DNA of 64,000 nucleotides from NCBI RefSeq assembly GCF_011068285.1, contig NZ_CP049616.1, positions 3,244,001-3,308,000 of the forward strand, read 5' to 3'. This document shows, piece after piece, positions 33,485 to 63,775 of this stretch. Numbering within the stretch: the first letter of the stretch is position 1; every line of letters begins with the position of its first letter. Position numbers and translations under genes: made by a program. Under the pieces are notes generated by a model that saw only the letters and a program-made list of their open reading frames with translations, was not told the origin of the DNA and made no database searches. The DNA comes from Flagellimonas oceani. GTDB lineage: Bacteria; Bacteroidota; Bacteroidia; Flavobacteriales; Flavobacteriaceae.

Positions 33485-34801
33485 ATGAACACGCCCGTTG
33501 AAGGATTTTCCAAACTCACCAAAACCCAAAAAATTGATTGGATAGCCACCCATTGCACCAAGGACCCCAAAAAAACCAAACAGCTATTGCAGCAGTATTG
33601 GAACTCGGACCCAAGGGTACAGCAATTGCACGATGAGTTTATAGAAAATACTGTATCCAACTACTATCTGCCCTTCGCCATTGCCCCCAATTTTTTGATC
33701 AACGGCGAACTATATGCCATCCCCATGGCGATTGAAGAAAGTTCGGTGGTGGCAGCAGCAAGCAAAGCGGCCAAATTTTGGTTGGAGCGCGGTGGTTTTA
33801 AGGCTGAAATTATTGGAACGGAAAAAGTCGGGCAGGTACACTTTATATATAAAGGTGCCAAAGAAAAGCTATCCGATTTCTTTGCTGCGGCCAAACCCGA
33901 ATTATTAAAAAGTGTTGCTTCCATCACAAAAAACATGGAAAAACGGGGCGGTGGCATCAACAATATTGAGTTAAGGGATTTGAGCGATACAATTGAAGGC
34001 TACCATCAGCTCCACTGCACTTTTGAGACTCTGGATGCCATGGGAGCCAATTTCATCAATTCCTGTTTGGAAGAATTTGCCAAAACATTAAAAGAGCAAG
34101 CACTTGCTTTTGATGCTTTTACGGAAGAGGAAAAAGACATTGAAGTGGTGATGAGCATCCTATCCAACTATGTGCCGAATTGTTTGGTGAAAGCTGAAGT
34201 GAGCTGTCCCATTTCGGAATTGGGCAATACGGATATGCCAGCCAAGGCATTTGCCGAAAAGTTTGTACAGGCCGTAAATATTGCCAAAGCGGAACCTTAC
34301 AGGGCGGTTACGCACAATAAGGGCATCATGAACGGTATCGATGCCGTGGTTCTTGCCACAGGAAATGATTTTAGGGCCGTGGAGGCCGGTGTGCATGCCT
34401 ACGCTTCCAAAACGGGGCACTACTCCAGCTTGACACATGCCAAAATCGAAGACGGTATTTTTAAATTTTGGATCGAGGTTCCACTGGCCCTTGGCACCGT
34501 GGGCGGATTGACCACATTGCATCCGTTGGTGAAACTTGCGCTGGAAATACTTCAAAATCCAACTGCAAAAGAGTTGATGCAGGTAGTCGCCGTGGCCGGA
34601 TTGGCCCAAAATTTTGCGGCCGTTCGCAGTTTGGTGACCACGGGGATTCAAAAAGGACATATGAAAATGCACTTGTTGAACATGTTGAATCAACTTGGAG
34701 CCACCGAATCTGAAAAACAACAACTGGTCACTTTTTTTAAGGATCAAACCGTAACCAATGCCGCGGTGAAGGAAGCTTTGGAAAAAATTAAATCAGAATA
34801 A
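33485..34801 (+). CDS. Hydroxymethylglutaryl-CoA reductase, class II type
   Basis: 438 aa. Catalytic Glu in AIEESSVVAAASKAA, the DAMGANFIN motif, NKGIMNGIDAVVLATGNDF (catalytic Lys/Asp region) and the C-terminal His in GHMKMHL identify HMG-CoA reductase. Class II enzymes are often labelled degradative. The one-base overlap (TAATG) with a GHMP kinase of the mevalonate type argues for a biosynthetic role, making mevalonate for isoprenoids. Confidence 0.95.
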   Translation: MNTPVEGFSKLTKTQKIDWIATHCTKDPKKTKQLLQQYWNSDPRVQQLHDEFIENTVSNYYLPFAIAPNFLINGELYAIPMAIEESSVVAAASKAAKFWLERGGFKAEIIGTEKVGQVHFIYKGAKEKLSDFFAAAKPELLKSVASITKNMEKRGGGINNIELRDLSDTIEGYHQLHCTFETLDAMGANFINSCLEEFAKTLKEQALAFDAFTEEEKDIEVVMSILSNYVPNCLVKAEVSCPISELGNTDMPAKAFAEKFVQAVNIAKAEPYRAVTHNKGIMNGIDAVVLATGNDFRAVEAGVHAYASKTGHYSSLTHAKIEDGIFKFWIEVPLALGTVGGLTTLHPLVKLALEILQNPTAKELMQVVAVAGLAQNFAAVRSLVTTGIQKGHMKMHLLNMLNQLGATESEKQQLVTFFKDQTVTNAAVKEALEKIKSE

Positions 34802-35709
34802 TGGAGAAGGAGTTTTACAGCAACGGCAAATTATTGCTTTCCGGCGAGTATGCCATTTTGGATGGCGCCTTGGGGTTGGCCATTCCCACCAGTTATGGGC
34901 AATCGCTTCACATAACCCCAACAACATCCGGTTTTTTGGAGTGGACCAGTTTTGACGAAAACGATAAAATCTGGTTCTCGGCCAGGTTTGACCTTACCAA
35001 TTTAAATGTGGTTTCCTCATCGGATGCCGCAATGGCAAAGACTTTGATGGATTTACTTTTGGAGGCGAATGCCCAAAACCCATTATTATTGACGGATAGT
35101 CAAGGTTTACAGATTGAGACCCATTTAACCTTTCCAAATTCGTGGGGACTCGGAACTTCTTCGACACTAATAAACAATGTGGCGCAATGGGCACGGGTGG
35201 ATGCCTTTCAACTTTTATGGAATGCTTTCGGCGGAAGTGGATACGATATTGCCTGTGCACAATACAATTCACCGCTGACCTATCAATTAAAGGATGGCAA
35301 TCCAGAAGTGGAGCAAATTGATTTTGATCCCATTTTCAAGGACTCGCTTTATTTTGTCCATCTCAACCAAAAACAGAGCAGCAAAGAGGCCATTGCCAAT
35401 TACAGAGAGCAAGAATTTGACCAATCGGAACTAGTTCGGCAGGTGTCCGACATTACCAAAAAAATGATTCACGCTTCTACTCTGGCCGGGTTCGAGACTT
35501 TGATGGATGAGCATGAAAATATCCTTTCCAAAGTTTTGAAAACCCCACCGGTAAAACAGCGTCTTTTCCCCGACTATTTTGGTGCGATAAAAAGTCTTGG
35601 TGCTTGGGGCGGGGATTTTGTTTTGGCCACTGGAGATGACAAAACGCACTCCTATTTTAAGTCAAAAGGTTTTGAAACGGTGATTCCCTACGCTAAAATG
35701 ACATTGTGA
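34801..35709 (+). CDS. GYDIA family GHMP kinase (mevalonate-pathway type)
   Basis: 302 aa. GHMP motif 1 NGKLLLSGEYAIL, motif 2 WGLGTSSTLI (ATP phosphate loop), the name-giving GSGYDIACAQ, and motif 3 LGAWGGDFVLATG. Family members are assigned to the Bacteroidota mevalonate route, probably mevalonate or phosphomevalonate kinase; which step is not resolvable here. Co-translated with HMG-CoA reductase. Confidence 0.9.
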   Translation: MEKEFYSNGKLLLSGEYAILDGALGLAIPTSYGQSLHITPTTSGFLEWTSFDENDKIWFSARFDLTNLNVVSSSDAAMAKTLMDLLLEANAQNPLLLTDSQGLQIETHLTFPNSWGLGTSSTLINNVAQWARVDAFQLLWNAFGGSGYDIACAQYNSPLTYQLKDGNPEVEQIDFDPIFKDSLYFVHLNQKQSSKEAIANYREQEFDQSELVRQVSDITKKMIHASTLAGFETLMDEHENILSKVLKTPPVKQRLFPDYFGAIKSLGAWGGDFVLATGDDKTHSYFKSKGFETVIPYAKMTL

Positions 35710-35748
35710 TTTTTCTTACAAATGAGGGTAATTTTCGTGATTTTCGCT

Positions 35749-35797
35749 CATCCGTAAACTCAAATGGGGCATTCGTCAATTGGCAACCTCCTAAAAC
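35749..35797 (+). promoter_or_regulatory. Tandem half-site regulatory element, copy 1
   Basis: CATCCGTAAA (35749-35758) and CATTCGTCAA (35770-35779) are direct repeats exactly 21 bp apart, followed by CTAAAA at 35791. The same composite occurs at 42186-42230. Two imperfect ~10-bp direct repeats spaced two helical turns apart is the geometry of LytTR-domain binding sites. The second half-site is 72 bp upstream of the AraC-type ATG. Confidence 0.65.
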
Positions 35798-35841
35798 TAT
35801 TCTTTTTTGCATTTTGAAACCAGAAGACAAAATTGATAGCT

Positions 35842-36489
35842 ATGTCGTTCTGGGAAAACACACAATTGTTCACAAAAAGCAAAGTAGGCCTTTTCACAAA
35901 AAAACTATTTTCGCTTTTTTCATTTCTATTTTTTTATACGGTACTCATTACCATATATAGTTGGTCAAATCCCAACAATGGGTTTAATACAATAATTATT
36001 TATGCTCAACTCATACCACTGGTTATATATTTGGCGGTCATGTATCTTTTATTTAAAAATCTAAAAGACTTGAGCAGAAAGGAGTATGCGAAATCTTCTC
36101 TGAACAAAAAAGACAAATACGAAAAAACAGGATTGTCGGAAGCCTTTTCATTAGAGCTCAAAAATAAATTGGAGCACTTGATGAATGAGGAAAAACTTTA
36201 TTTAGATCATGAACTTAGACTTGATAATATCGCCGAACTATTAGGCATTTCGAGGCATCATGCGTCACAGGTAATCAACGAAAATTTCAACCTTAGTTTT
36301 TACGACTTCGTAAATTCATATCGAATTGAGGAGGCTAAAAATAGGTTATGTTCGGACTTTGAGAGCTCTCCGGAATCCATTTCTGATATTGCTTACCAGT
36401 GCGGGTTCAACAACAGGGTTTCTTTTTACAAAGCTTTTAAAAAGATTACCCATATTACTCCAAAAGAATTCATCCAAAGTGCCGCTTAA
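35842..36489 (+). CDS. Membrane-anchored AraC-family transcription regulator
   Basis: 215 aa from ATG 35842 (a TTG three codons earlier is less likely). Two membrane segments at the N-terminus (LFSLFSFLFFYTVLITIY, then LIPLVIYLAVMYLLF) lead through a charged linker to a C-terminal AraC double helix-turn-helix (LRLDNIAELLGISRHHASQV, then ISDIAYQCGFNNRVSFYKAF). The architecture resembles the C-terminal end of larger membrane AraC sensors with the sensory part shortened. It faces the SusC/SusD locus and may regulate it. Confidence 0.88.
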   Translation: MSFWENTQLFTKSKVGLFTKKLFSLFSFLFFYTVLITIYSWSNPNNGFNTIIIYAQLIPLVIYLAVMYLLFKNLKDLSRKEYAKSSLNKKDKYEKTGLSEAFSLELKNKLEHLMNEEKLYLDHELRLDNIAELLGISRHHASQVINENFNLSFYDFVNSYRIEEAKNRLCSDFESSPESISDIAYQCGFNNRVSFYKAFKKITHITPKEFIQSAA

Positions 36490-36728
36490 AACATTTCCCT
36501 ACTTGTTAATGTTAACTTAAATCGGCAAATACGTAAAGGTTAATAAGAGTTTACAGCCTTGACTTTTACTTTCCCTTTTTTTGTTCCGCAATCCACAAGG
36601 TGGGGTCCCTAAATCTTACTTCATATCAATGACAAAGTTTTCATTGTATTGAATTTTTTGAATTAGCCTACAAAAAAGATTTACCCCTGCCTTGCTTGGA
36701 TTCATTAACTAACTCTTAATCAATTTTT
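36490..36728. other. Intergenic leader of the SusC/SusD operon
   Basis: 239 bp without a credible reading frame. It holds a small palindrome GTTAA-TG-TTAAC just after the AraC gene and an AT-rich leader with no clear TAnnTTTG match. The susC-like promoter must lie here but I cannot place it. Confidence 0.4.
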
Positions 36729-39700
36729 ATGAAAACAAAAAAATGTTGGATGGTGCTGATGCTGTTTATATGTGTAATCACAGCATCTTTGGCACAGGAA
36801 AAAAACATTTCAGGTAACGTGACGGACCAGTCTGGTCTTCCGCTCCCTGGTGTTTCCATTGTGGTTGTGGGGACATCCAATGGTACACAAACCGATTTTG
36901 ATGGGAACTATTCCATCACAGCCAGTACTGGACAAACCCTTCGTTTTAGCTACATTGGTCAAAAAACTGTTGATAGAACTGTAGGAGCTTCCTCTACCAT
37001 TAATGTGCAGATGGAGGAGGATGCGCAAGCTTTGGAAGAAGTTGTTGTGACGGGTTATGGTTCTCGTTCAAAGGAGTTGTCGACATCGGCAATTTCAACG
37101 GTATCCACCGAAAAGATTGAGGCATTCGTTCCTTCCACTAGCGTGGATAATATACTTCAAGGTCAGGCTGCTGGTGTTCAGGTAACGGCAGCGAATGGTA
37201 GGCCAGGTCAAACTGCTTTCGTTACCATTAGGGGTGTTGGTTCGCTTAACGCGAGTACAACGCCTTTATATGTGGTAGATGGTGTTCCGGTTAACTCTGA
37301 TTTCATCAACAACCTGAACCCGAATGACATTGAGTCTTTTTCCATTCTTAAAGATGCGGCCACAGTTTCAAAATATGGTTCCCGTGGTTCTAACGGTGTT
37401 GTATTGATTACTACCAAACAAGGTAAGACAGGGGATGCACGCATCACTTTTAGATCTTCCTTTGGCTTTTCGGAAAGAATTCCTGACCCATTTGATTTGA
37501 TGAACACTTCTCAGAAGCTTGAACTTGAAAGACAATTTGCTGAATTGGGTGTCAATGCAGCTCAGTCTTTGCCTGGTGCAACAGCAGATGATGCTGAAAG
37601 AGCAAGGTTGATAGGTCTGGATACCAATTGGGAGGAAGAATTGTTGAGAAAGGGTCAGATACAGTCCAACTCTCTTTCTATTTCCGGGGGTGATGAAAAA
37701 ATGACATATTTCCTTTCTTTGGGTTATGATAAGAACACAGGTATCATTGATAGAATTGATGGTTTTGAAAGGGTAACGGCTCGCTTGAACACAACATACC
37801 AGGCCAAAGAGTGGTTGAATGTAGGTACTAATATATCTCTTTCAAGAAGTACTACTGATTTACCTAGGGACCGTAACAACGTGCAGAACCCATTTAGAGC
37901 GATGTACGATTACAACCCATGGGATCCTTTGTATTTGAGGAATGCTGACGGAAGTATACAACTTGATGAGCAAGGTGATCCAATTTTCAATCCAACAACA
38001 CAAGGGTATTCAATTGCAAGGGCCTTGATTACAGAGCCAGAGGACAATAGAAACTTCCTTATCGTTGGTAGCTTGTTTGCCGATATTAAGTTTTCCGACA
38101 AGTTCTCCAACAGATTCTCGGTTGGTGCTACAAACAATAGATTTAATAGAACAGTGAGATCATTGCCAGGAGGTGTTTTGGATGGTATTGTAGGGGATGC
38201 TAATTTCCCTGGAACACAGACGGATAATTTTTCCAATACATTGCAATACAATGTGAACAACCTATTTTCCTACAGTGATACCTATGGAGATTATCATAAT
38301 TTATCAGCAAGTTTCCTGTTGGAATACAACGAGAATATCTACACGGATCTTTTTGCCAGTGCAAGAGGGTTTCCTTCTCCAGAAATTCCTTATCAGGATG
38401 TAGCTGCCGAAGCCACTGCATCTGGTTCAGAAGAGGCTAGAAGAGTTCTGTTTTCACAAGGTCTTTTCGTGGATTATGACTATGATGGAAAGTACATCCT
38501 TTCCGGGTCAATTAGACGCGATGGTTCTTCAAGATTTGGACCTGAAAACCAGTACGGATATTTCTACAGTGGTAGTGCCGCTTGGAACATTGCAAGGGAA
38601 TCTTTCTTAGAGGGTACTGCAGTCAACGATTTAAAGCTTAGGGCTTCTTATGGTACTTCTGGTAACCAGAACATAGGGGACTTTAACTTCTTGAACTTGT
38701 TGGAGTTCGGAACATATAATGGTAATACCACTGCTATTCCAATTGGAGTGGGAAACACAAATATCAAATGGGAGTCTCAGGCTATTTTGGATATAGGTCT
38801 TGAGTTTGGGTTGTTCAACAATAGAGTAAATGGTGTAGTTGATTATTTCAAAAAGAATTCAAGGGATTTATTGTTGAACCAACCGTTGTCCCAAACAGTG
38901 GGTGATGAGGACAACTCCATTGTTGCAAATATCGGTGAGGTTGAGAACAGCGGTATCGAAGTTTCCTTGAACGCAGATGTTATTCGAGCCCAAGATTTTG
39001 TTTGGAGAGTTGGAGGTAATATATCTTTTCTAGACAACAAGGTGGTTAGCTTGGTTAATGGTGATGACATCATCAATGGAACTTTTGGTTACAACATTTT
39101 GAGGGAAGGAGAGGAAATCAACTCTTTCTACACAGTTAAATACGCTGGGGTCAATCCGGCCAACGGTGAGCCTTTGTACTATGATCTCGATGGTAATATC
39201 ACCAACGAATATAGCGCTAGCTTTAATACAATTTTGGAAGGCAAATCCCCCTATGCCAATGTTGAGGGCGGATTCTTCACTTCCATCCGATGGGGTGGAT
39301 TTGGAGTGCGTGCCGATTTTGTTGGTAAAGGAGGAAACTATATTATGAACTTCCAGAGACAAGCTGGTATTTCTATCGGAAATATTGATAGTAACCAAAG
39401 AGTTGAAGCTTTCAACTACTGGAAACAGCCTGGTGATACTAACGTGTTGCCTAGTCCAATATTTGGAGGTACGGCAGACCAAGATAGTGACCGATGGTTG
39501 GAAAAAGGAGATTATATACGTTTGAGAACCTTGACAGTTGACTATAATTTAACTGGAAAGATTATTCATGGAACAGGTATTGACAGGCTCCGAGTTTTTG
39601 CCACAGGTCAGAACTTATTTACCATTACTGAATACAACGGAGATCCAGAAATAGGAATTGGTTCGGGTGAAAGCTCTGCAGCAGGTAGTGCTGGATTTAT

Positions 39701-39773
39701 TCCTGGAGCTTTCTCTTTGTTCAGTTATCCACAGACTAGGTCTTATACATTCGGAGTAGAAATCGGATTTTAA
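36729..39773 (+). CDS. SusC/RagA-type TonB-linked outer-membrane transporter
   Basis: 1014 aa. Signal peptide (LMLFICVITASLAQ), carboxypeptidase-regulatory-like domain (NVTDQSGLPLPGVSIVVVGT), the SusC signature region VVVTGYGSRSKELSTSAIS, a plug with PLYVVDGVPVNSDF and DAATVSKYGSRGSNGVVLIT, then a 22-strand-type barrel ending TRSYTFGVEIGF. It imports a bound oligomer with its SusD partner 14 bp downstream. No glycosidase or protease is nearby, so the substrate is unknown. Confidence 0.97.
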   Translation: MKTKKCWMVLMLFICVITASLAQEKNISGNVTDQSGLPLPGVSIVVVGTSNGTQTDFDGNYSITASTGQTLRFSYIGQKTVDRTVGASSTINVQMEEDAQALEEVVVTGYGSRSKELSTSAISTVSTEKIEAFVPSTSVDNILQGQAAGVQVTAANGRPGQTAFVTIRGVGSLNASTTPLYVVDGVPVNSDFINNLNPNDIESFSILKDAATVSKYGSRGSNGVVLITTKQGKTGDARITFRSSFGFSERIPDPFDLMNTSQKLELERQFAELGVNAAQSLPGATADDAERARLIGLDTNWEEELLRKGQIQSNSLSISGGDEKMTYFLSLGYDKNTGIIDRIDGFERVTARLNTTYQAKEWLNVGTNISLSRSTTDLPRDRNNVQNPFRAMYDYNPWDPLYLRNADGSIQLDEQGDPIFNPTTQGYSIARALITEPEDNRNFLIVGSLFADIKFSDKFSNRFSVGATNNRFNRTVRSLPGGVLDGIVGDANFPGTQTDNFSNTLQYNVNNLFSYSDTYGDYHNLSASFLLEYNENIYTDLFASARGFPSPEIPYQDVAAEATASGSEEARRVLFSQGLFVDYDYDGKYILSGSIRRDGSSRFGPENQYGYFYSGSAAWNIARESFLEGTAVNDLKLRASYGTSGNQNIGDFNFLNLLEFGTYNGNTTAIPIGVGNTNIKWESQAILDIGLEFGLFNNRVNGVVDYFKKNSRDLLLNQPLSQTVGDEDNSIVANIGEVENSGIEVSLNADVIRAQDFVWRVGGNISFLDNKVVSLVNGDDIINGTFGYNILREGEEINSFYTVKYAGVNPANGEPLYYDLDGNITNEYSASFNTILEGKSPYANVEGGFFTSIRWGGFGVRADFVGKGGNYIMNFQRQAGISIGNIDSNQRVEAFNYWKQPGDTNVLPSPIFGGTADQDSDRWLEKGDYIRLRTLTVDYNLTGKIIHGTGIDRLRVFATGQNLFTITEYNGDPEIGIGSGESSAAGSAGFIPGAFSLFSYPQTRSYTFGVEIGF

Positions 39774-39787
39774 AAAAAGAAATTAAC

Positions 39788-41245
39788 ATGAAAAATAGAT
39801 TATATAAATATTGTTTAGCATCATTTGTAGCAGCAACCTTGTTGGTGTCTTGTGATGACGAACTGGACGTCGATCCATTTACAGAAGGTAATCCAGAAAC
39901 ATTTTTTAATACGGTTTCCAGTTTCCAGAATGGAGTGGATGGTATATATAGCCAGTTTTGGAATTATTATTCTGCGCCGGGCTCCGGTCTGCAAGGTATT
40001 CCCGATATCTTATCGGACAATGTAATTCTTGCACAGACTGGTCGTAGGTCTAACGAGGTTTATTACGACTACAGATATAATCCAAATACGTTAGGGGCAA
40101 TTCCACTTTATTGGAGTGAAGCTTATGAAGCAGTAAATGCCGCTAACTTGATAATTGGGCAGATAGATAACTTGGCCAGTGGTCCTGAAAAGGACAATAT
40201 TCTTGGTCAGGCCCTTGCTGCTCGTGCTATTGCACATTTTGACCTTGCAAGAATATATGCCATGATTCCAACGCAAAGTACCGATGCGGCCAACTCGCCC
40301 GGTATTGTTTATATTAAAGTAGAAGATGGTGATACTGATGATCCTTTGGCTCAGCCTTCCAGAGAAACTGTTGCAAGCAATTATAGTGAGATAATTGGAG
40401 ATTTGGAGCAGGCTGCCCAGTTGATCGGGACTTCCAACGGCGAAGGACGATTGAATAGAAATGCTGTGTACGCCATGTTGTCAAGGGTTTATCTTTACAA
40501 TGGTGATTATCAATTGGCGATAAATGCCGCAGATCAGGTGACAACTGACATAATTGATGCCAAAGTTGAAGGAGCTCTAATGGCTGTCTATGAGGACACT
40601 ACTAATAAAGGCGTTATTATAGAGTGGTCTGTAAATACTTCTTCGGAATCAAGATTTAACAATGTTGGCGTACTTTACAGTCAAACTACGCCTCCCAATA
40701 CCGTGCTTGAATATGCAGTTGAATATGAATTCTTCAATAATTTAGATCCAAACGATTTAAGGAGAGAAGTGATTCAATATGATGCCACTAACCAAGGTAA
40801 CAATTACAATGCTATAAGAAAGTTCTTGGGTGAACCTAATCAGGTAAACGGACGTGTGGACATTAAAGTTCTTAGGGCCGCAGAGGTTTTGCTGAACAAG
40901 GCTGAGGCTCAATTTGAAATCGACCCAGCAGCTGCACTTACAACTTTGAACATATTGAGGGATGCTAGATATACCTCTTACACAGGTGGAGAAACAGGTC
41001 AGGCATTGGAAGATGCCATTCAATATGAAAGAAGGGTGGAACTTAGTTTTGAGGGTCACAGATTTTTCGACCTAAAACGTAGAGGAGAGGCTGTACAACG
41101 TTCAAATAATGGAGATTTAGCCGATGGATCAGGAACACCTCCTGAGATTTTGACATTGCCTGTTGGGGACCACAGATTCCAGTTTCCTATACCTATTGAT
41201 GAGATCAATGCCAACCCGAATATGGCACAAAATCCAGATTATTAA
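39788..41245 (+). CDS. SusD/RagB-family substrate-binding lipoprotein
   Basis: 485 aa. Lipoprotein signal ending LLVSCDDELD, helical TPR-like scaffold (ALAARAIAHFDLARIYAM), and the C-terminal family block RRVELSFEGHRFFDLKRRG with the FPIP(I)DEINANPNMAQNPDY ending. It forms the lid over the SusC barrel. Adjacent and co-oriented with susC-like and the next lipoprotein gene. Confidence 0.97.
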   Translation: MKNRLYKYCLASFVAATLLVSCDDELDVDPFTEGNPETFFNTVSSFQNGVDGIYSQFWNYYSAPGSGLQGIPDILSDNVILAQTGRRSNEVYYDYRYNPNTLGAIPLYWSEAYEAVNAANLIIGQIDNLASGPEKDNILGQALAARAIAHFDLARIYAMIPTQSTDAANSPGIVYIKVEDGDTDDPLAQPSRETVASNYSEIIGDLEQAAQLIGTSNGEGRLNRNAVYAMLSRVYLYNGDYQLAINAADQVTTDIIDAKVEGALMAVYEDTTNKGVIIEWSVNTSSESRFNNVGVLYSQTTPPNTVLEYAVEYEFFNNLDPNDLRREVIQYDATNQGNNYNAIRKFLGEPNQVNGRVDIKVLRAAEVLLNKAEAQFEIDPAAALTTLNILRDARYTSYTGGETGQALEDAIQYERRVELSFEGHRFFDLKRRGEAVQRSNNGDLADGSGTPPEILTLPVGDHRFQFPIPIDEINANPNMAQNPDY

Positions 41246-41263
41246 TTTGTAACTGCTTAAAAG

Positions 41264-42100
41264 ATGAAAAATATATTTAAAGCATTTGGAGTTCTTTTTG
41301 TGGGTCTTACGTTGTTTTTCTCATCATGTGAAGAAGAACAGATTGTTTACAATCCAGTATCCGGTCAGACGCTTGCATCGTTCAGTACTTCAGCCAAAAA
41401 CTTGCCAGTACCTGCGGAGGGTAATTCAGTAAATATCGATATAACTGCTAGTACTGAATCTGATGTAGCAAGAACTATTTCGGTCGAAGTGGACCCCACT
41501 TCGACAGCTACCCCTGATCAATACACAATCAGTAACCCTGGTATCGCTGCAGGTAAATTTGTAGGAACAATAACAGTTGAGGGCAACTTTGACGCTTTAC
41601 CAGAAGAAGGCGCTACTATGTTAGTTCTTAACCTTAAAGATGTGTCCGATTCAAATGATTTGACTTTTGGTAATGAAACCGTAACCATTACTTTGTTCAG
41701 AAAGTGTGATGAGGCTCCGACCCCTGGTGAATGGATCATTAATATGGAGGATATCTATGGAGATGGATGGCAAACAACCACTGGAAACGGAGGGCCAGGT
41801 ATCTCTATTACATTGAGTGACGGCACCGTATTTGAGGTAGGTCTCTGCACTCCATATGAGGAAAATAGCTATGATTGTACTGGTTTCGATACCGTATTCG
41901 ATTCTGATGCTCCTGATTGGACCAGTGGTTCAGCTACGATTGAAATCCCTGATGGTATCGAGTCTGCGGAATGGTATTTCCCTGGAGACAATTGGGAAGA
42001 GATATCTTTCAGTATAGTGGCTCCAAATGGAAACATAGTCGCTCAGGGAAATCCAGGCACACCAGCTGGCCCGATAGAAATCGATTTTTGCGCTCAGTAA
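41264..42100 (+). CDS. Accessory surface lipoprotein of the SusC/SusD locus
   Basis: 278 aa. Lipoprotein signal ending LFFSSCEEE. Residues ~25-145 look like a DUF4843/Calx-beta-type beta-sandwich (VARTISVEVDPTSTATPDQY). The C-terminal half begins NMEDIYGDGWQTTTGNGGPG and has paired cysteines, resembling the 'GDGW' beta-domains of secreted flavobacterial proteins. Third gene of the locus, 18 bp after SusD, so probably a surface glycan- or protein-binding accessory. Ligand unknown. Confidence 0.8.
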   Translation: MKNIFKAFGVLFVGLTLFFSSCEEEQIVYNPVSGQTLASFSTSAKNLPVPAEGNSVNIDITASTESDVARTISVEVDPTSTATPDQYTISNPGIAAGKFVGTITVEGNFDALPEEGATMLVLNLKDVSDSNDLTFGNETVTITLFRKCDEAPTPGEWIINMEDIYGDGWQTTTGNGGPGISITLSDGTVFEVGLCTPYEENSYDCTGFDTVFDSDAPDWTSGSATIEIPDGIESAEWYFPGDNWEEISFSIVAPNGNIVAQGNPGTPAGPIEIDFCAQ

Positions 42101-42133
42101 TATCATTGGAGTAAATAACTAATAACCTAAGAT

Positions 42134-42173
42134 ATAAAAGCATCCTGATTACCAATCAGGATGCTTTTATTTC
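42134..42173 (+). terminator. Terminator of the SusC/SusD operon
   Basis: ATAAAAGCATCCTGATT (42134-42150) and AATCAGGATGCTTTTAT (42154-42170) form a perfect 17-bp stem with a three-base loop and a T-rich 3' side. Confidence 0.9.
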
Positions 42174-42185
42174 AACCAACCACCT

Positions 42186-42230
42186 CATCCATCAACCCAA
42201 ACAGGCCATCCGTCAATTGGTGCCCTAAAA
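42186..42230 (+). promoter_or_regulatory. Tandem half-site regulatory element, copy 2
   Basis: CATCCATCAA (42186-42195) and CATCCGTCAA (42207-42216), again exactly 21 bp apart, with TTGG directly after and CTAAAA at 42225. It aligns with 35749-35797 nearly base by base. The second half-site is 75 bp before the ATG of the secreted unknown protein. Confidence 0.65.
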
Positions 42231-42281
42231 TTTAATCAATTGCTCTTATGTTTGACACATATTCATCAAATTATTGATAAT

Positions 42282-42863
42282 ATGGCCCGAATCAACAATA
42301 AAACAATTGGCAATCTATTGGCTGGATTACTCTTTCAATCCACTACAATTTTGTTCAGTCAAAATGACACGGAAACAATCCTGAGACTTGATAACTTCAT
42401 CAACAAAAGCTGCACCACCAGCTACAATCAAATCACCTCGGAAATAGTTCAGAACATTCTAAAACACGATGTGTACTATATCACTCAGGAGACTATGAAT
42501 ATCTATGGTGAAAAGGAAAAAGAGGTCCATGAGTTTATTGTGGTGGACAATGGTGCGGAAGTAAAACGGTTTGAAAGGATAAAAACCGACACTCCCCTTC
42601 CAGAACTCACCAGTTACATTCGTGAAGACTTTGTACTCAACGAAGAATCCGCTCCAAATTTTCAAGCGCTCTTGGACTACATATACCCCATTGCCGATTG
42701 GAAACCGGATAAACGGGAATTCTTTTTTAAAAACGGCAAATGGTATTTCCTTCGGGATGCATATTTCCGTACCAAACAAGGTTTTGAGATCACTGTAAGC
42801 CCAAAAGGAAAAATAACCCATATCTGCTACAAGATGAAATGGGACGAATACGAAAGTAAATAG
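42282..42863 (+). CDS. Secreted protein of unknown function
   Basis: 193 aa from the ATG at 42282 (a TTG 14 codons upstream overlaps the probable promoter). The N-terminus (NLLAGLLFQSTTILFSQ) is a plausible signal peptide, then a soluble alpha/beta-looking domain with many aromatic and charged residues (DYIYPIADWKPDKREFFFK, RDAYFRTKQGFEITVSPKG). I recognise no family. It lies alone between two terminators and behind the tandem 21-bp-spaced element, so it is a monocistronic, specifically regulated gene. Confidence 0.75.
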   Translation: MARINNKTIGNLLAGLLFQSTTILFSQNDTETILRLDNFINKSCTTSYNQITSEIVQNILKHDVYYITQETMNIYGEKEKEVHEFIVVDNGAEVKRFERIKTDTPLPELTSYIREDFVLNEESAPNFQALLDYIYPIADWKPDKREFFFKNGKWYFLRDAYFRTKQGFEITVSPKGKITHICYKMKWDEYESK

Positions 42864-42865
42864 GC

Positions 42866-42900
42866 AACAAAAAAGCCTCCCGATCGGGAGGCTTTTTGTT
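42866..42900. terminator. Bidirectional terminator between convergent genes
   Basis: AAAAAGCCTCCCGATC is self-complementary with GATCGGGAGGCTTTTT: a nearly uninterrupted palindrome with A- and T-runs on both sides. It serves the secreted unknown gene on plus and the ppiD operon on minus. Confidence 0.9.
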
Positions 42901-42916
42901 ATCTTTTTGGCCAATC

Positions 42917-45037
42917 CTAGTAGAATGTAGCCCTCTTGTCTTCTATTTCTGCCTTATCTTTTAAAGCATTGTACACTGACCCATTTACTCTGGCAGCAGC
43001 ACTTGTTTGTAGGTTTTGTGCATAGGTGCTATAGTTCTCCACATCGGCAGCTTCCGTTTTATTGGTTACTTTGATCATGTAAACACCGGTACTTCCCTCG
43101 AGCAAATCAGAAGTCTGATCCTTTTCCATGGCAAACGCTTTTCCAACAACAAATGGCTCTCTCCCTGCCCCTGGCAATGTTGGAGAGGACAATGTAACCG
43201 CAGAAGCAGTGCTTACGCTTACGCCATTATCCGAAGCAATCGCATCCATCGCCTTGCCTTTGTTGGCAGCAATAATTTGTTCTGCTTTGCGCTCCTTTCT
43301 GATGGCCGGCAACGCGGTTGCCGAGGCATCTTCGGGTGCCATTAGCCCTTTTTTGTACTTCTTGGTCAACTGCACCACGGCGTAACCGTTGTTTACATTA
43401 AAACGTCGGATGTCACCAACATTGGTATCCTCGTTAAATGCCCACTGTACAATGCTACGCTGGGAACCAAGGCCCGGAAGGTTCTCTTCCATTTCCTTGA
43501 TTTTGTTCACTGGACGAACGGTGTAGCTACTTTCTCTTGCAATGTCGCCAAAGTCTTCCGGCTCTGCATCCATAACTGCCATTTCGTACTTGGTGGCATC
43601 GGTGAACAAGGTATTGATTGTTTCTTCCGATGGCTCAATTTCTCTCGACAATGTTGCTACCTGAATCACATCTTGCTTGTCATCAACCTTGATTACGTGG
43701 TATCCAAATTGGGTTTCCACCAAACCAACTGTCCCTGTTGGGTTTCCAAAACAGAAATCATTGAATTCATCGGCCATTACGCCTTCTTGGAAATACCCTA
43801 GGTCACCTCCACGTGGAGCGGATGGTCCGTCTGAATTATCCCGTGCAAGTGCCGTAAAAACAGCATCTTCTTTCTTGGCTTCGGCCAATAATCTTTTTGC
43901 TTCGGCTTCGGCTTCCTCCTTGGTTCTGGTAATGGATGGGTTGGCACGTTCTGCACCTTCCCAAGTAATCAAAATATGGCTTGCTTTTACGGTTCCATTT
44001 TCTTTTCTGTCCATTACTTTGGATACTTTGTAAGCATCTCCATCTTTATAGGGGCCGTATATCTCCCCAACGCTCATCGCCATCAATGTATCGGCAACTA
44101 CGGAAGGAAGGTCTTTTTTGGCCTTATAAATGGTATCGAACTTGGTATCGGAATGTCTGTCCAAGAAAGCGGCCATGTCCGTAGTGTTCCTAAATCCTAG
44201 GATGGTATCGTTGGCATCTTTTGCCTCTGAATACTCCACAGAGCTGTCCATTAGCGAAGTTATTGCGGTTTTTACACTGTTCTCATCTTCGGCTGATGGC
44301 TTTTCTTCAAAATAAACGAAACGGATATCACGCGCTTTATCTTGCTTGAACAAGGCTTTGTGATTGTTGATATAGGCTTGGATATCACTTTTGGAAACTT
44401 CGATAGTGCTATCTGGAATTGAGGTGTAAGGAATACGAACATATTGCATGTCCACCTTGTTGTTGGCCATGTCGTAGTTCAACTCACCTTCGGTCAGGGT
44501 AGCAGTAACCCCTCCTTTAACCAAATTGAAATACATGCGCTCCTTAGCGGCCTGAATGATGGATTCCTCATCCTGCAACCATGCATCGTAACGCAAAGGG
44601 TCGTTGGCCTTCCAGTCGGCAATGGCACTTTTAAAGACTTGTTCGTTGAACACACCGTTCTCATCCTGGAAATCTGGAATCTGCGCATAACCTGAAGTTC
44701 TGACAAAATCAACGATTTGATCGCTTTCCACATCAATGCCCAAATCCTCGAACTGTTGGTTCAAGATGGCCCTTCTCACTTCTTGATCGTAAACCATGTT
44801 CACCAACTGGGTGGAGGTAACGGACGGACCGTATCTTCGGGAGGCCGTTTCCACCTGAGCTCTAAACTCGTCAATTGGAATATTTTCCCCATTTACTTCT
44901 GCAACCGAGGAGCCTACTTTTCCACCAGAAAAATTATTGCTGCTGAATACTCCCGATATTACGAATGCGAACAACGCCAAACCAATAATTAGAATAAGAA
45001 CTGTTGTCCGTTTTCTAATATTCTCTAATATTGCCAT
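42917..45037 (-). CDS. ppiD: Periplasmic peptidyl-prolyl isomerase PpiD/SurA type
   Basis: 706 aa from ATG 45037 (MAILENIRKRTT), the family start. One membrane anchor (VLILIIGLALFAFVISGVF), a SurA-N helical chaperone domain, a parvulin rotamase domain (VKASHILITWEG to TQFGYHVIKVDD) and a C-terminal SurA-like part. It folds outer-membrane proteins leaving the Sec channel. Last gene of the coaX-led envelope operon. Confidence 0.93.
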   Translation of the reverse strand: MAILENIRKRTTVLILIIGLALFAFVISGVFSSNNFSGGKVGSSVAEVNGENIPIDEFRAQVETASRRYGPSVTSTQLVNMVYDQEVRRAILNQQFEDLGIDVESDQIVDFVRTSGYAQIPDFQDENGVFNEQVFKSAIADWKANDPLRYDAWLQDEESIIQAAKERMYFNLVKGGVTATLTEGELNYDMANNKVDMQYVRIPYTSIPDSTIEVSKSDIQAYINNHKALFKQDKARDIRFVYFEEKPSAEDENSVKTAITSLMDSSVEYSEAKDANDTILGFRNTTDMAAFLDRHSDTKFDTIYKAKKDLPSVVADTLMAMSVGEIYGPYKDGDAYKVSKVMDRKENGTVKASHILITWEGAERANPSITRTKEEAEAEAKRLLAEAKKEDAVFTALARDNSDGPSAPRGGDLGYFQEGVMADEFNDFCFGNPTGTVGLVETQFGYHVIKVDDKQDVIQVATLSREIEPSEETINTLFTDATKYEMAVMDAEPEDFGDIARESSYTVRPVNKIKEMEENLPGLGSQRSIVQWAFNEDTNVGDIRRFNVNNGYAVVQLTKKYKKGLMAPEDASATALPAIRKERKAEQIIAANKGKAMDAIASDNGVSVSTASAVTLSSPTLPGAGREPFVVGKAFAMEKDQTSDLLEGSTGVYMIKVTNKTEAADVENYSTYAQNLQTSAAARVNGSVYNALKDKAEIEDKRATFY

Positions 45038-45121
45038 TTTACTGCTTGTTTTTTTTGAATTCAGTGGGCGAAAATACCACTTTCTTTTCAAATAGGAAAG
45101 CTAAAAACAGGGTGGAAATTA

Positions 45122-46411
45122 TTAATCTTCAGTATGAACGCGCACACTTACCAGGTCTATTTTGGTGTTGGACACCTCCAAAATTTTGAAGGTGAAGTTG
45201 TCCACGGTCACCTCTGAATCCTGTTCCGGGATTTCTCCTGTCTGATTTACGATGAGACCGCCCAATGTTTCGTATTCTTCTCCTTCAGGAAGCTCTAATT
45301 TGTACTGCTCGTTGATGTAGTCCACCTCCATCCGGGCAGAGAACTTGTACTCGTTCTCGCCGATTTGCTCTTCATGCAGGTCTGTGGAATCGTGCTCGTC
45401 CTCAATTTCACCAAAAAGTTCCTCGATAATGTCCTCGACGGTCAAAATACCGGAGGTACCACCATATTCATCGAGAACAACCGCCATACTCTTACGCTTT
45501 TTGGTCAATACGTTCAAGATGTCCTGAATGAGCATGGTTTCCGGAACAAACTCCACAGGAAGCAATATACTCTTGATGGTCTTTGGTTTTTTGAACAGTT
45601 CGTAAGAGTGTACATAACCTATAATTTCGTCGATGCTATCCTTAAAAATCAGAATTTTTGAATAGCCTGTTTCAGTAAAGAGTTTTGTTAGGTTTTTAGG
45701 GGTTTCATTGAGTTCCACCGCCGTAATTTCGGTTCTGGGCACCATTACTTCCCTCGCTTTTACGGTCGAGAATTCCAATGCATTCTGAAATATCTGTATT
45801 TCGGAATCCACGTCGTCCTCTTCCTGTACGGTTTCCATCTGTTCGTTGATATAGTCTCCCAATTCCAGCTTGGTAAAGGACAACTGCACCTCATCCCCTT
45901 CCGTTTTGAAGAATATCCTTAGTATAAAGTCGGATACCTTGATAACGAACCAAGAGATTACGGAGAACAAGAGATAGAAGATATAGGCCGGCACCGCAAA
46001 CACCTTGATCAGCACATTGGCATATATCTGAAAAAAAACCTTTGGCAAAAACTCGGCCGTCAATAAAATAACCAGGGTGGAGATTATGGTCTGTGCCAAC
46101 AAGCTAAAATCCGTTAGCAGTATATTAATGAACTGCAAATTGGTGGGGACCAAGCTCTGGAACCATTCCATGAGCATATCTCCCATAAATAGCCCATAAA
46201 TTACCAGTGCGATATTGTTGCCGATAAGCATGGTGGCAATAAATTTTGAAGGCTTATCGGTAAGTAAGGTGAGTACCTTCGCCAAAAATCCTTCTTGCTT
46301 TTTTTCAATCTCAATATGGATCTTATTGGCGGAAACGAAGGCTATCTCCATTCCCGAAAAAAACGCCGAAAACAGCAGAGAAAGAATTATGATGATCACG
46401 GAGGAATCCAA
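45122..46411 (-). CDS. CorB/CorC-type hemolysin-family membrane protein (CNNM + CBS)
   Basis: 429 aa. An N-terminal CNNM/DUF21 domain with three to four membrane segments (FSAFFSGMEIAFVSANK), a pair of CBS domains (TKLFTETGYSKILIF; KRKSMAVVLDEYGGTSGILTVEDI) and a C-terminal CorC_HlyC domain. The class is linked to Mg2+/Co2+ efflux; in Flavobacteriia a paralogue is GldE. Three bases separate it from the next gene upstream. Confidence 0.9.
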   Translation of the reverse strand: MDSSVIIIILSLLFSAFFSGMEIAFVSANKIHIEIEKKQEGFLAKVLTLLTDKPSKFIATMLIGNNIALVIYGLFMGDMLMEWFQSLVPTNLQFINILLTDFSLLAQTIISTLVILLTAEFLPKVFFQIYANVLIKVFAVPAYIFYLLFSVISWFVIKVSDFILRIFFKTEGDEVQLSFTKLELGDYINEQMETVQEEDDVDSEIQIFQNALEFSTVKAREVMVPRTEITAVELNETPKNLTKLFTETGYSKILIFKDSIDEIIGYVHSYELFKKPKTIKSILLPVEFVPETMLIQDILNVLTKKRKSMAVVLDEYGGTSGILTVEDIIEELFGEIEDEHDSTDLHEEQIGENEYKFSARMEVDYINEQYKLELPEGEEYETLGGLIVNQTGEIPEQDSEVTVDNFTFKILEVSNTKIDLVSVRVHTED

Positions 46412-46413
46412 TG

Positions 46414-46617
46414 TTATTGTTGATTATCCTTGTTTCGTTGCTCAAAGCGCTTCCGATATCTTCTCCTAAAAACGAACATGGCTATGGATACCACGGCAAA
46501 GAAGATAAATATGTAGGTTTCCTTTGGATCAATGCTCCAAAGTGTTGCAATCTTGTAAACGGATATGGCGGCCACTGCCAAATAAAGGTATTCCGTGTAT
46601 CTTAAAATTTTGATCAT
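46414..46617 (-). CDS. Small two-segment membrane protein
   Basis: 67 aa with two membrane segments (EYLYLAVAAISVYKIATLW and TYIFIFFAVVSIAMFVF) and a basic tail (RRRYRKRFEQRNKD). It is tightly packed between lptC (one base) and the CorC-type gene (two bases), so it belongs to the operon. No family recognised beyond conserved position. Confidence 0.8.
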   Translation of the reverse strand: MIKILRYTEYLYLAVAAISVYKIATLWSIDPKETYIFIFFAVVSIAMFVFRRRYRKRFEQRNKDNQQ

Positions 46618-62813: not shown

Positions 62814-63775
62814 GCTATTTAGATGCCACCCAAAACCTTTACAAAGAGGCTGCATTGACCCCAGATGTTGGACTTTGCTGCACCACCAACCCCATTTGGC
62901 AATTTCCGGGGCTGTCCATTCCCAAGATCATGCAGGAGATGAACTATGGTTGCGGCAGCACCGTTTCCGCACAGGATCTGGTGAACAGTCCAAAAGTATT
63001 GTACGTAGGGGTCGGCGGTGGAATGGAACTGCTTCAGTTCTCCTACTTTTCCAGACAAACAGGGGGTGTTACCGGGGTGGATTCCGTGGATGAAATGCTG
63101 GAAGCTTCCCGAAAAAACTTCAAAATAGCGGAAGAAGAAAACGATTGGTTCAAAAGTGAATATGTCAACTTGGTCAAAGGAGATGCCTTAAACCTACCTG
63201 TTGATGATGAAAGTATGGATGTGGCCGCCCAAAACTGTCTCTTCAATATTTTTAAAATAGAAGATCTGAAGAAAGCCGTTTCCGAAATGTACCGGGTATT
63301 GAAGCCCCATGGTAGATTGGTGATGAGCGACCCCATTTGCGAGCAACCCATGAGCGATGAGCTCCGTAACGATGATAGACTCCGGGCCCAATGCCTGAGC
63401 GGCAGCATCCCATTGAAAGATTACGTGAAAGTCTTGACGGATGCGGGTTTTGGCACCATTGAGATTCGTGGGAAACGATCGTACAGGGTGTTATCTCCAA
63501 ACCATTACCCTACCAAAGAACTCATCCATATCGAATCTATTGAAATTGCGGCCATAAAGGATCCCATGCCCGAAGACGGACCTTGTGTTTTTACAGGCAA
63601 AACGGCCATCTATTTTGGCAACGAAGATTATTTTGATGATAAAAAAGGACACGTGCTACAACAAAACCAACCATTGGCCGTATGCGATAAAACTGCGGCG
63701 GCTTTGGCCAATGCTTCGGATGAAATCTTTATCAGTGAAAGTACCTACCACTATAATGGTGGCGGATGCTGCTAG
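62810..63775 (+). CDS. arsM: Arsenosugar biosynthesis arsenite methyltransferase ArsM
   Basis: 321 aa. SAM-binding core (VLYVGVGGGMELLQF, VDSVDEMLEASRKN, KGDALNLPVDDESMDVA), Cys-containing N-terminus (DVGLCCTTNP) and a second cysteine set (SDPICEQPM, GPCVFTGKTA, and the terminal GGGCC). Methylates arsenite using SAM and thiols; the arsenosugar type has this extended C-terminus. Translationally coupled to PNP. The radical-SAM ArsS partner is not in the window. Confidence 0.93.
   Translation: MSYLDATQNLYKEAALTPDVGLCCTTNPIWQFPGLSIPKIMQEMNYGCGSTVSAQDLVNSPKVLYVGVGGGMELLQFSYFSRQTGGVTGVDSVDEMLEASRKNFKIAEEENDWFKSEYVNLVKGDALNLPVDDESMDVAAQNCLFNIFKIEDLKKAVSEMYRVLKPHGRLVMSDPICEQPMSDELRNDDRLRAQCLSGSIPLKDYVKVLTDAGFGTIEIRGKRSYRVLSPNHYPTKELIHIESIEIAAIKDPMPEDGPCVFTGKTAIYFGNEDYFDDKKGHVLQQNQPLAVCDKTAAALANASDEIFISESTYHYNGGGCC

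Follow-up and report, generated by a model that had tools for sequence, protein, structure and literature searches.

The operators of the LytTR-domain regulators AgrA, VirR, ComE and AlgR consist of short paired repeats, and the I1-I2 half-sites of AraC form a direct repeat with a spacing of 21 base pairs (bp) that adjoins the promoter. Here we describe a repeat element of comparable build in Flagellimonas oceani (assembly GCF_011068285.1, contig NZ_CP049616.1, positions 3,244,001 to 3,308,000 of the forward strand), a stretch of 64,000 nucleotides (nt) referred to below as the window. The element occurs there twice, before the gene of an AraC-type regulator and before that of a secreted protein of 193 amino acids (aa; here X193), and the two copies flank a SusC/SusD locus. 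In repeat length and spacing the elements are like the four LytTR operators, and they share the 21-bp spacing of I1-I2. Unlike the AraC half-sites, however, they are numerous in several genomes without the window's AraC protein, whose own site is probably another motif.

According to the excerpted text of one source, almost all LytTR regulators recognize two repeats of 9–11 nt with spacers of 11–13 nt, and YpdB, a cooperative activator of Escherichia coli, has at yhjX an operator of two direct repeats of about 10 bp, GGCATTTCAT (PMC4847170). The elements described here likewise contain two direct repeats of about 10 bp, and GGCATTTCAT of YpdB resembles GGGGCATTCGTC in them. They differ from the YpdB operator, which in that excerpt serves a single direct target gene, in that about 40 sites are present, the unit is longer, a third unit is sometimes seen, and the binder is only a candidate.

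The locus between the two elements can be compared with the SusC/SusD shufflon of Bacteroides fragilis, in which, as far as the excerpted text goes, one cluster (with Tsr0667) yields alternative SusC/SusD proteins (PMC11852207). Both cases place alternative SusC/SusD proteins at one site, here between species only. In the shufflon an invertase shuffles cassettes within a strain, whereas we see a between-species difference with a fixed junction and no framing inverted pair listed, no recombinase search having been made. Among the literature matches listed, nothing to the point was found on SusC exchange beyond the shufflon work. The site also contrasts with the alginate loci of Flagellimonas, which the excerpt of another study describes as mostly vertically inherited (PMC12323373).

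We found that the two window elements belong to a family of about 40 sites in the F. oceani genome, most of them at a fixed distance before a gene. With moderate confidence, we regard each element as an operator through which one activator, most likely a LytTR-domain response regulator, would serve many promoters.

Element family and position relative to promoters

Both elements were recovered where the original prediction had placed them, at 35749–35779 with 0 mismatches and at 42186–42216 with 1 mismatch to CATYCGTMAA-N11-CATYCGTCAA, while the mean number of chance matches at up to 3 mismatches is 0.05 in the window (100 shuffles). A third window match at 63413 on the minus strand, with 3 mismatches and a profile E of 0.47, looks like noise. 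The two elements make up the longest direct repeat listed in 34000–46500 (37 nt, 81%). Their ATG codons, at 35842 and 42282, lie 62 and 65 bp past the end of the 31-bp core; the predicted distances of 72 and 75 bp hold when counted from the start of the second unit. The prediction had also counted a CTAAAA hexamer as part of the element. We discarded it, as it is out of register between the two sites and is not conserved in the family, whose columns at this place carry little information. The conserved third part of the family is the -7 box TAnnTTTG at +61.

The genome scan suggested with the prediction was run on the window's own genome (G000, a single contig of 4,610,330 bases). With 3 mismatches allowed, a relaxed pattern matched 73 times (12, 18, 15 and 28 at 0, 1, 2 and 3 mismatches, respectively), and a control pattern read backwards gave 17 at the same limit. 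Once overlapping registers had been merged, the 4.61-Mb genome had 40 distinct sites with no more than 2 mismatches. The unit they share is longer than first noted, CATYCGTCAA-YTCAAA-NGGGG, and returns every 21 bp, that is, every two helical turns; it is present twice strongly and often a third time as a weaker copy on the distal side. GGGG occurs in 21 of the 40 sites and a minority carries C-rich tetramers, such as CCAC, CACC or CCCG, an alternation that may reflect a demand on DNA shape and not on bases. We also built a profile on sequence alone, using 37 of the 40 sites, and it found 52 places in G000 at E up to 0.01. The profile counts, like the ortholog figures for L082 and AraC over the genus given below, refer to the matches listed.

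The sites are not scattered within coding sequence, the finding named in the prediction as fatal to it: 3 of 40 lie inside a flagged open reading frame (ORF; 148–1008 codons), while in 33 of 40 the downstream ORF chosen starts 54–100 bp past the core (median 68 among the 37 sites with an ORF). Moreover, 22 different sites of the 40 have a -7 box with no more than one mismatch starting at +61 (18 sites) or +60 (4 sites), and no other position has one in more than 2 sites; exact boxes are few, with 3 at +61 and 1 at +60. In the congeners a weight matrix identified 78 elements in 60 regions, 32 of which have the box at +60 or +61. The regions are among the best-scoring profile rows, so that weak elements are under-represented, and 2 of the 78 score under 30 and are possibly chance matches. 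Neither the weight matrix nor the profile contained -7 columns. The expected numbers of boxes at +60/+61 are 0.6 in G000 and 1.0 in the congeners (Poisson 4e-27 and 5e-37), and in a recount per site no other adjacent position pair has more than 2 or 4, respectively. T65 and T66 are conserved in 90% and 95% of the G000 sites and in 93% and 87% of the congener elements.

TTG is rare, occurring in 0–3 sites at each of positions 34–45, so that the usual -33 contact is not seen. The distance from the operator end to the phased sigma-A -7 box is about 28 bp. Since the -7 box of Flavobacterium psychrophilum spans -12 to -5 in the excerpt consulted (PMC9723704), the operator would cover about -73 to -40, a position consistent with that of an activator replacing the -33 contact. 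The phased box and the ATG distance put the sites, as judged from sequence, just upstream of a promoter.

Taxonomic range and conservation

All 35 congeners searched have profile matches, from 1 to 48 per genome, at E up to 0.01 (matches listed). Among 23 genomes of other families, 21 have no match listed and 2 have one each, at E near 0.008. The strict pattern was present in 1 of 249 genomes of the family, the window's own, in a sample of 235 genera; an element-poor congener was one of the genomes without a match. The profile matched 2 of 149 genomes at E up to 0.001, the second one with a single match. A stricter pattern found 31 stretches in a species-genome collection (84,980 species by its description), of which 30 belong to records labelled Flagellimonas, Allomuricauda or Muricauda and the remaining one to a metagenome-assembled genome (MAG) named only Bacteroidia. 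The element is thus essentially confined to Flagellimonas/Allomuricauda/Muricauda.

Within the genus the two window elements are kept while their flanks diverge. Before AraC orthologs (identity of at least 50%), 13 of 18 elements score at least 28, 4 score 14–20, and none is present in G013; before X193, 8 of 10 congeners score at least 26 and 2 score 14–16. In G017 the two locus elements (L316, 475–509 and 7822–7856) are identical over 35 bases, including an odd CAGAT, with unlike flanks, which may reflect either local gene conversion or convergence. In the literature covered, which leaves most subscription journals outside, we found no published site with the sequence of the element and no work on a LytTR regulon or binding motif in Flavobacteri, Bacteroidetes or Muricauda.

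Target genes

By eye, 27 of the 37 downstream proteins listed look secreted or like lipoproteins. Pfam was scanned for 25 of the 37, plus AraC and X193, and 12 of the 25, as well as X193, gave no match. Targets include lipoproteins of DUF285 repeats with cadherin or TIG domains, Big_2/TIG lipoproteins, collagen-repeat proteins, a DUF7507/CHU_C protein of 2486 residues, an OmpA/DUF5723 protein, and proteins with LRR, SH3_3, HEAT or methyltransferase domains. In congeners the recurring targets are, by eye, the AraC gene, a second AraC-like gene, a methyltransferase and small lipoproteins. The original prediction proposed a regulon linking AraC and a secreted protein. Both genes do appear to belong to one regulon, as the element is kept before their orthologs, but that regulon is far larger than two genes.

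X193 has 93 relatives at E up to 0.001 in a protein search; the named ones are nearly all from Flagellimonas, Allomuricauda or Muricauda, with MAGs named 'Algicola', 'Bacteroidales' and 'Bacteroidota' as exceptions. Its model, of fair confidence (predicted local distance difference test, pLDDT, 83.7), has no fold match in PDB at E up to 0.001, and a congener copy likewise lacks a Pfam match.

Three further observations concern individual loci. First, L058, L060, L062 and L068 hold paralogous lipoproteins (DUF285, cadherin, TIG or Big_2), several of which have near-identical promoters. Second, the region L070 (G000, 4240500–4260400) holds at least 5 profile matches in 12 kb, adjoining CHU_C-like and PorP-like genes (by eye) and the LytTR gene L082. 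Third, L167 and L189 encode an AraC-like protein of 161–163 aa (by eye), without membrane part, 3' of an element in G005 and G001.

Candidate regulators and other explanations

A LytTR-domain activator is favoured because the repeat geometry fits published LytTR sites: units of 10 nt with a spacer of 11 nt fall within the ranges of 9–11 and 11–13 nt. The geometry thus bears out this part of the original prediction, with LytTR as binder still a candidate. Such an activator would occupy adjacent units on the same face of the helix, bend the A-rich stretch that separates them and recruit RNA polymerase, thereby substituting for the -33 contact that is missing. Its targets in the window would be the AraC gene and X193, and AraC would in turn probably drive susC from a different conserved site. 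Of this cascade, the simplest interpretation, in which the activator acts on AraC and AraC on susC, the DNA parts alone were seen.

G000 encodes 13 LytTR proteins, of which 8 have close reciprocal orthologs (at least 81%) in the element-rich G017 and G034. The same 8 have orthologs in the element-poor G019 too, where L080 reaches only 61%. Two LytTR proteins, L080 and L082, and one AraC were profiled over the genus; the tests of presence against element number ignore kinship and leave out G000 and G306–G309, the latter having no element count. L082 adjoins several elements and lies on the strand of those at 4246633 and 4247541. We rejected it as the regulator, since among the matches listed no close ortholog exists in the element-rich G034, G021 and G002. 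L080 has a His_kinase protein as gene neighbour. In congeners at least 90% complete it is present in 25, with a median of 21 elements, and absent in 6, with a median of 6 and a maximum of 8 (p 0.013).

Several results weigh against the LytTR assignment or against the promoter role of the element. None of the 8 remaining candidate binders among the 13 is singled out cleanly. The best match of L082 in G034, a genome with 48 elements, is at 40% (matches listed), and its presence does not follow element number (p 0.84). With incomplete genomes included, two without L080 have 14 and 19 elements (p 0.016). Of the 25 near-complete congeners that keep L080, four (G011, G015, G019 and G024) have only 1–3 elements. 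The LytTR domain of L080 is alike in the element-poor G019 (1 element) and the element-rich G033 (32 elements), and we dismissed a change in this domain as the cause of element loss. AraC presence tracks element number better than L080 does (p 0.0007). As for the promoters, 18 of the 40 sites of G000 lack a phased -7 box, and element 1 of the window has only a degenerate one with 2 mismatches.

That no protein profiled over the genus, neither the two LytTR proteins nor AraC, tracks the element count cleanly would also suit a binder from a different activator family, or one that is universal; given how closely the geometry matches LytTR operators, we hold this rather doubtful.

It is quite unlikely that the window AraC, or a paralog, binds the elements to regulate its own gene and a regulon, although several results agree with it. 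AraC half-sites are 21-bp direct repeats too, and two blocks about 10 bp apart are conserved within the unit; the AraC gene carries a strong element in 13 of 18 orthologs, and another AraC-like gene (161–163 aa, by eye) carries one in G005 and G001; and congeners at least 90% complete have a median of 28 elements with AraC and 7 without (p 0.0007). That correlation is equally explained by AraC being a target, however, and five element-rich genomes, 98–99% complete, have no AraC ortholog of at least 50% among the matches listed, namely G033 (32 elements), G012 (21), G030 (19), G021 (17) and G002 (16). The gap between AraC and susC, moreover, holds another invariant motif, found once in 1.23 Mb, as expected of a local AraC site. 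On sequence grounds, AraC autoregulation through the elements appears less likely.

Finally, a mobile or repetitive sequence copied round the genome would account for the many, genus-specific copies, for some near-duplicate promoters (1851663/1852887 and several DUF285 genes) and for the 35 identical bases of the two G017 elements between unlike flanks, but it is highly improbable, as most flanks outside the operator and -7 box are unlike one another, most copies stand at a fixed distance from promoter and ATG, and orthologous copies persist as flanks drift.

Framed SusC/SusD locus

The window region comprises the following features.
35749..35781, plus strand: element 1, units CATCCGTAAA/CATTCGTCAA-TT with 21-bp spacing, before the AraC gene, kept before AraC orthologs
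35809..35816, plus strand: candidate -7 box GCATTTTG, degenerate (2 mismatches), placed by the family phasing
35842..36489, plus strand: AraC-type regulator, 215 aa, HTH_18, membrane part by eye (searched as 35854–36486)
36533..36555, plus strand: conserved motif GTAAAGGTT-NN-TAAG-NNNNN-ACA in the AraC-susC gap, unlike the elements
36729..37055, plus strand: susC leader with signal peptide and CarboxypepD_reg_2, to LEEVVVTG, kept in the compared congeners
37056..39773, plus strand: susC plug and barrel, species-variable
39788..41245, plus strand: SusD (SusD_RagB), species-variable
41264..42100, plus strand: lipoprotein-like protein (by eye) of 278 aa, no Pfam match, among congener loci only in G028
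42131..42173, plus strand: terminator-like hairpin, 20-nt arms, 95%, before element 2
42186..42218, plus strand: element 2, two units with 21-bp spacing, before the secreted 193-aa protein
42247..42254, plus strand: -7 box TATGTTTG, exact TAnnTTTG, +61 from the start of element 2
42282..42863, plus strand: X193, 193 aa, signal-peptide-like start (by eye), no Pfam match
42917..45091, minus strand: downstream anchor gene, putatively PpiD-like

For 17 congeners we compared the regions round the AraC orthologs. SusC comes next after AraC, at least in part, in all 17, with G307 and G023 cut soon after by contig ends, and X193 with an element before it follows in 10. X193 was not found in the regions of G013, G020, G025, G031 and G032; that of G020 is cut short, and those of G025, G031 and G032 run straight to the anchor.

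Conservation changes abruptly within susC. For 120 pairs of 16 loci the median identities are 55% for AraC, 66% for SusC residues 1–110, 24% for the rest of SusC and 18% for SusD, while those of X193 (11 genomes) and the anchor (12 genomes) are 55% and 77%. Across the gap and the first 320 nt or so of susC, DNA identity with eight congeners is mostly 60–88% (lowest 47%); past the junction it is 28–65%, and near element 2 it rises again. Thus SusC past the TonB-box region, SusD and the lipoprotein differ as a block between species (37056–42180), while AraC and the leader stay. Three pairs share a cassette, with 84–87% in the rest of SusC at AraC identities of 43–66%; G028, with the same cassette as the window, keeps 70–85% DNA identity past the junction. 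The junction follows LEEVVVTGYG, presumably the TonB box, between CarboxypepD_reg_2 (27–107) and Plug (118–224). Generic conservation of SusC N termini was rejected as the cause of the break: eight SusC paralogs in 800 kb of G000 (a distant 883-aa match left out) are 38–52% identical to the window SusC leader, versus 63–84% for the locus proteins, and the bodies are equally unlike (26–30% for the paralogs). No inverted pair of at least 16 nt with arms at the two ends of 37056–42180 is listed in the window.

An alignment of the AraC-susC gap from 15 genomes, from which G013 had been left out beforehand, shows no variation in GTAAAGGTT, TAAG and ACA. In 1.23 Mb of G000 the combination GTAAAGGTT-NN-TAAG-NNN-TTACA has a single match with no more than 2 mismatches and two more at 3; it is the probable site of AraC itself.

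A protein search points to a second copy of the SusC body. P0095 is 94% identical to the window SusC body with a foreign signal peptide (35%), which resembles the signal peptides of further SusCs under the names Flagellimonas or Allomuricauda; its counterpart for SusD is P0215 (92%). The window SusC (36729–39773) and P0095 are identical over 290 residues (116–405) and 154 residues (523–676). In 5000 random placements of the 51 body differences so long a run was never reached, which points to recombination between the two SusC copies. P0095 is putatively from the same genome, and it was not found in the stretches of G000 DNA examined.

Taken together, we tentatively propose a genus-wide SusC/SusD expression site, somewhat short of an even chance in our judgement, with a fixed frame under a surface regulon of about 40 promoters. 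The frame would consist of the operator, AraC, the second promoter motif and the SusC leader to the TonB-box region, often with a second operator and secreted protein. Within it, the SusC plug and barrel, SusD and the following genes would be swapped as one cassette, both from species to species and through gene conversion with a further SusCD copy in the same genome.

Significance

In one marine genus, about 40 promoters, mostly of surface or secreted proteins, carry a single operator grammar that can be read from sequence. The YpdB operator, the nearest counterpart found, has one target gene in the excerpt consulted, and the exact form of the element is missing from the genomes of the 234 other genera sampled. 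Among LytTR proteins, the question of its regulator comes down to eight candidates. The framed SusCD site suggests that uptake specificity may be exchanged while promoter, leader peptide and regulator stay constant, with implications for diet change or phage escape of marine flavobacteria. If the expression site is real, it would resemble a site of antigenic variation without an invertase, no recombinase search having been made.

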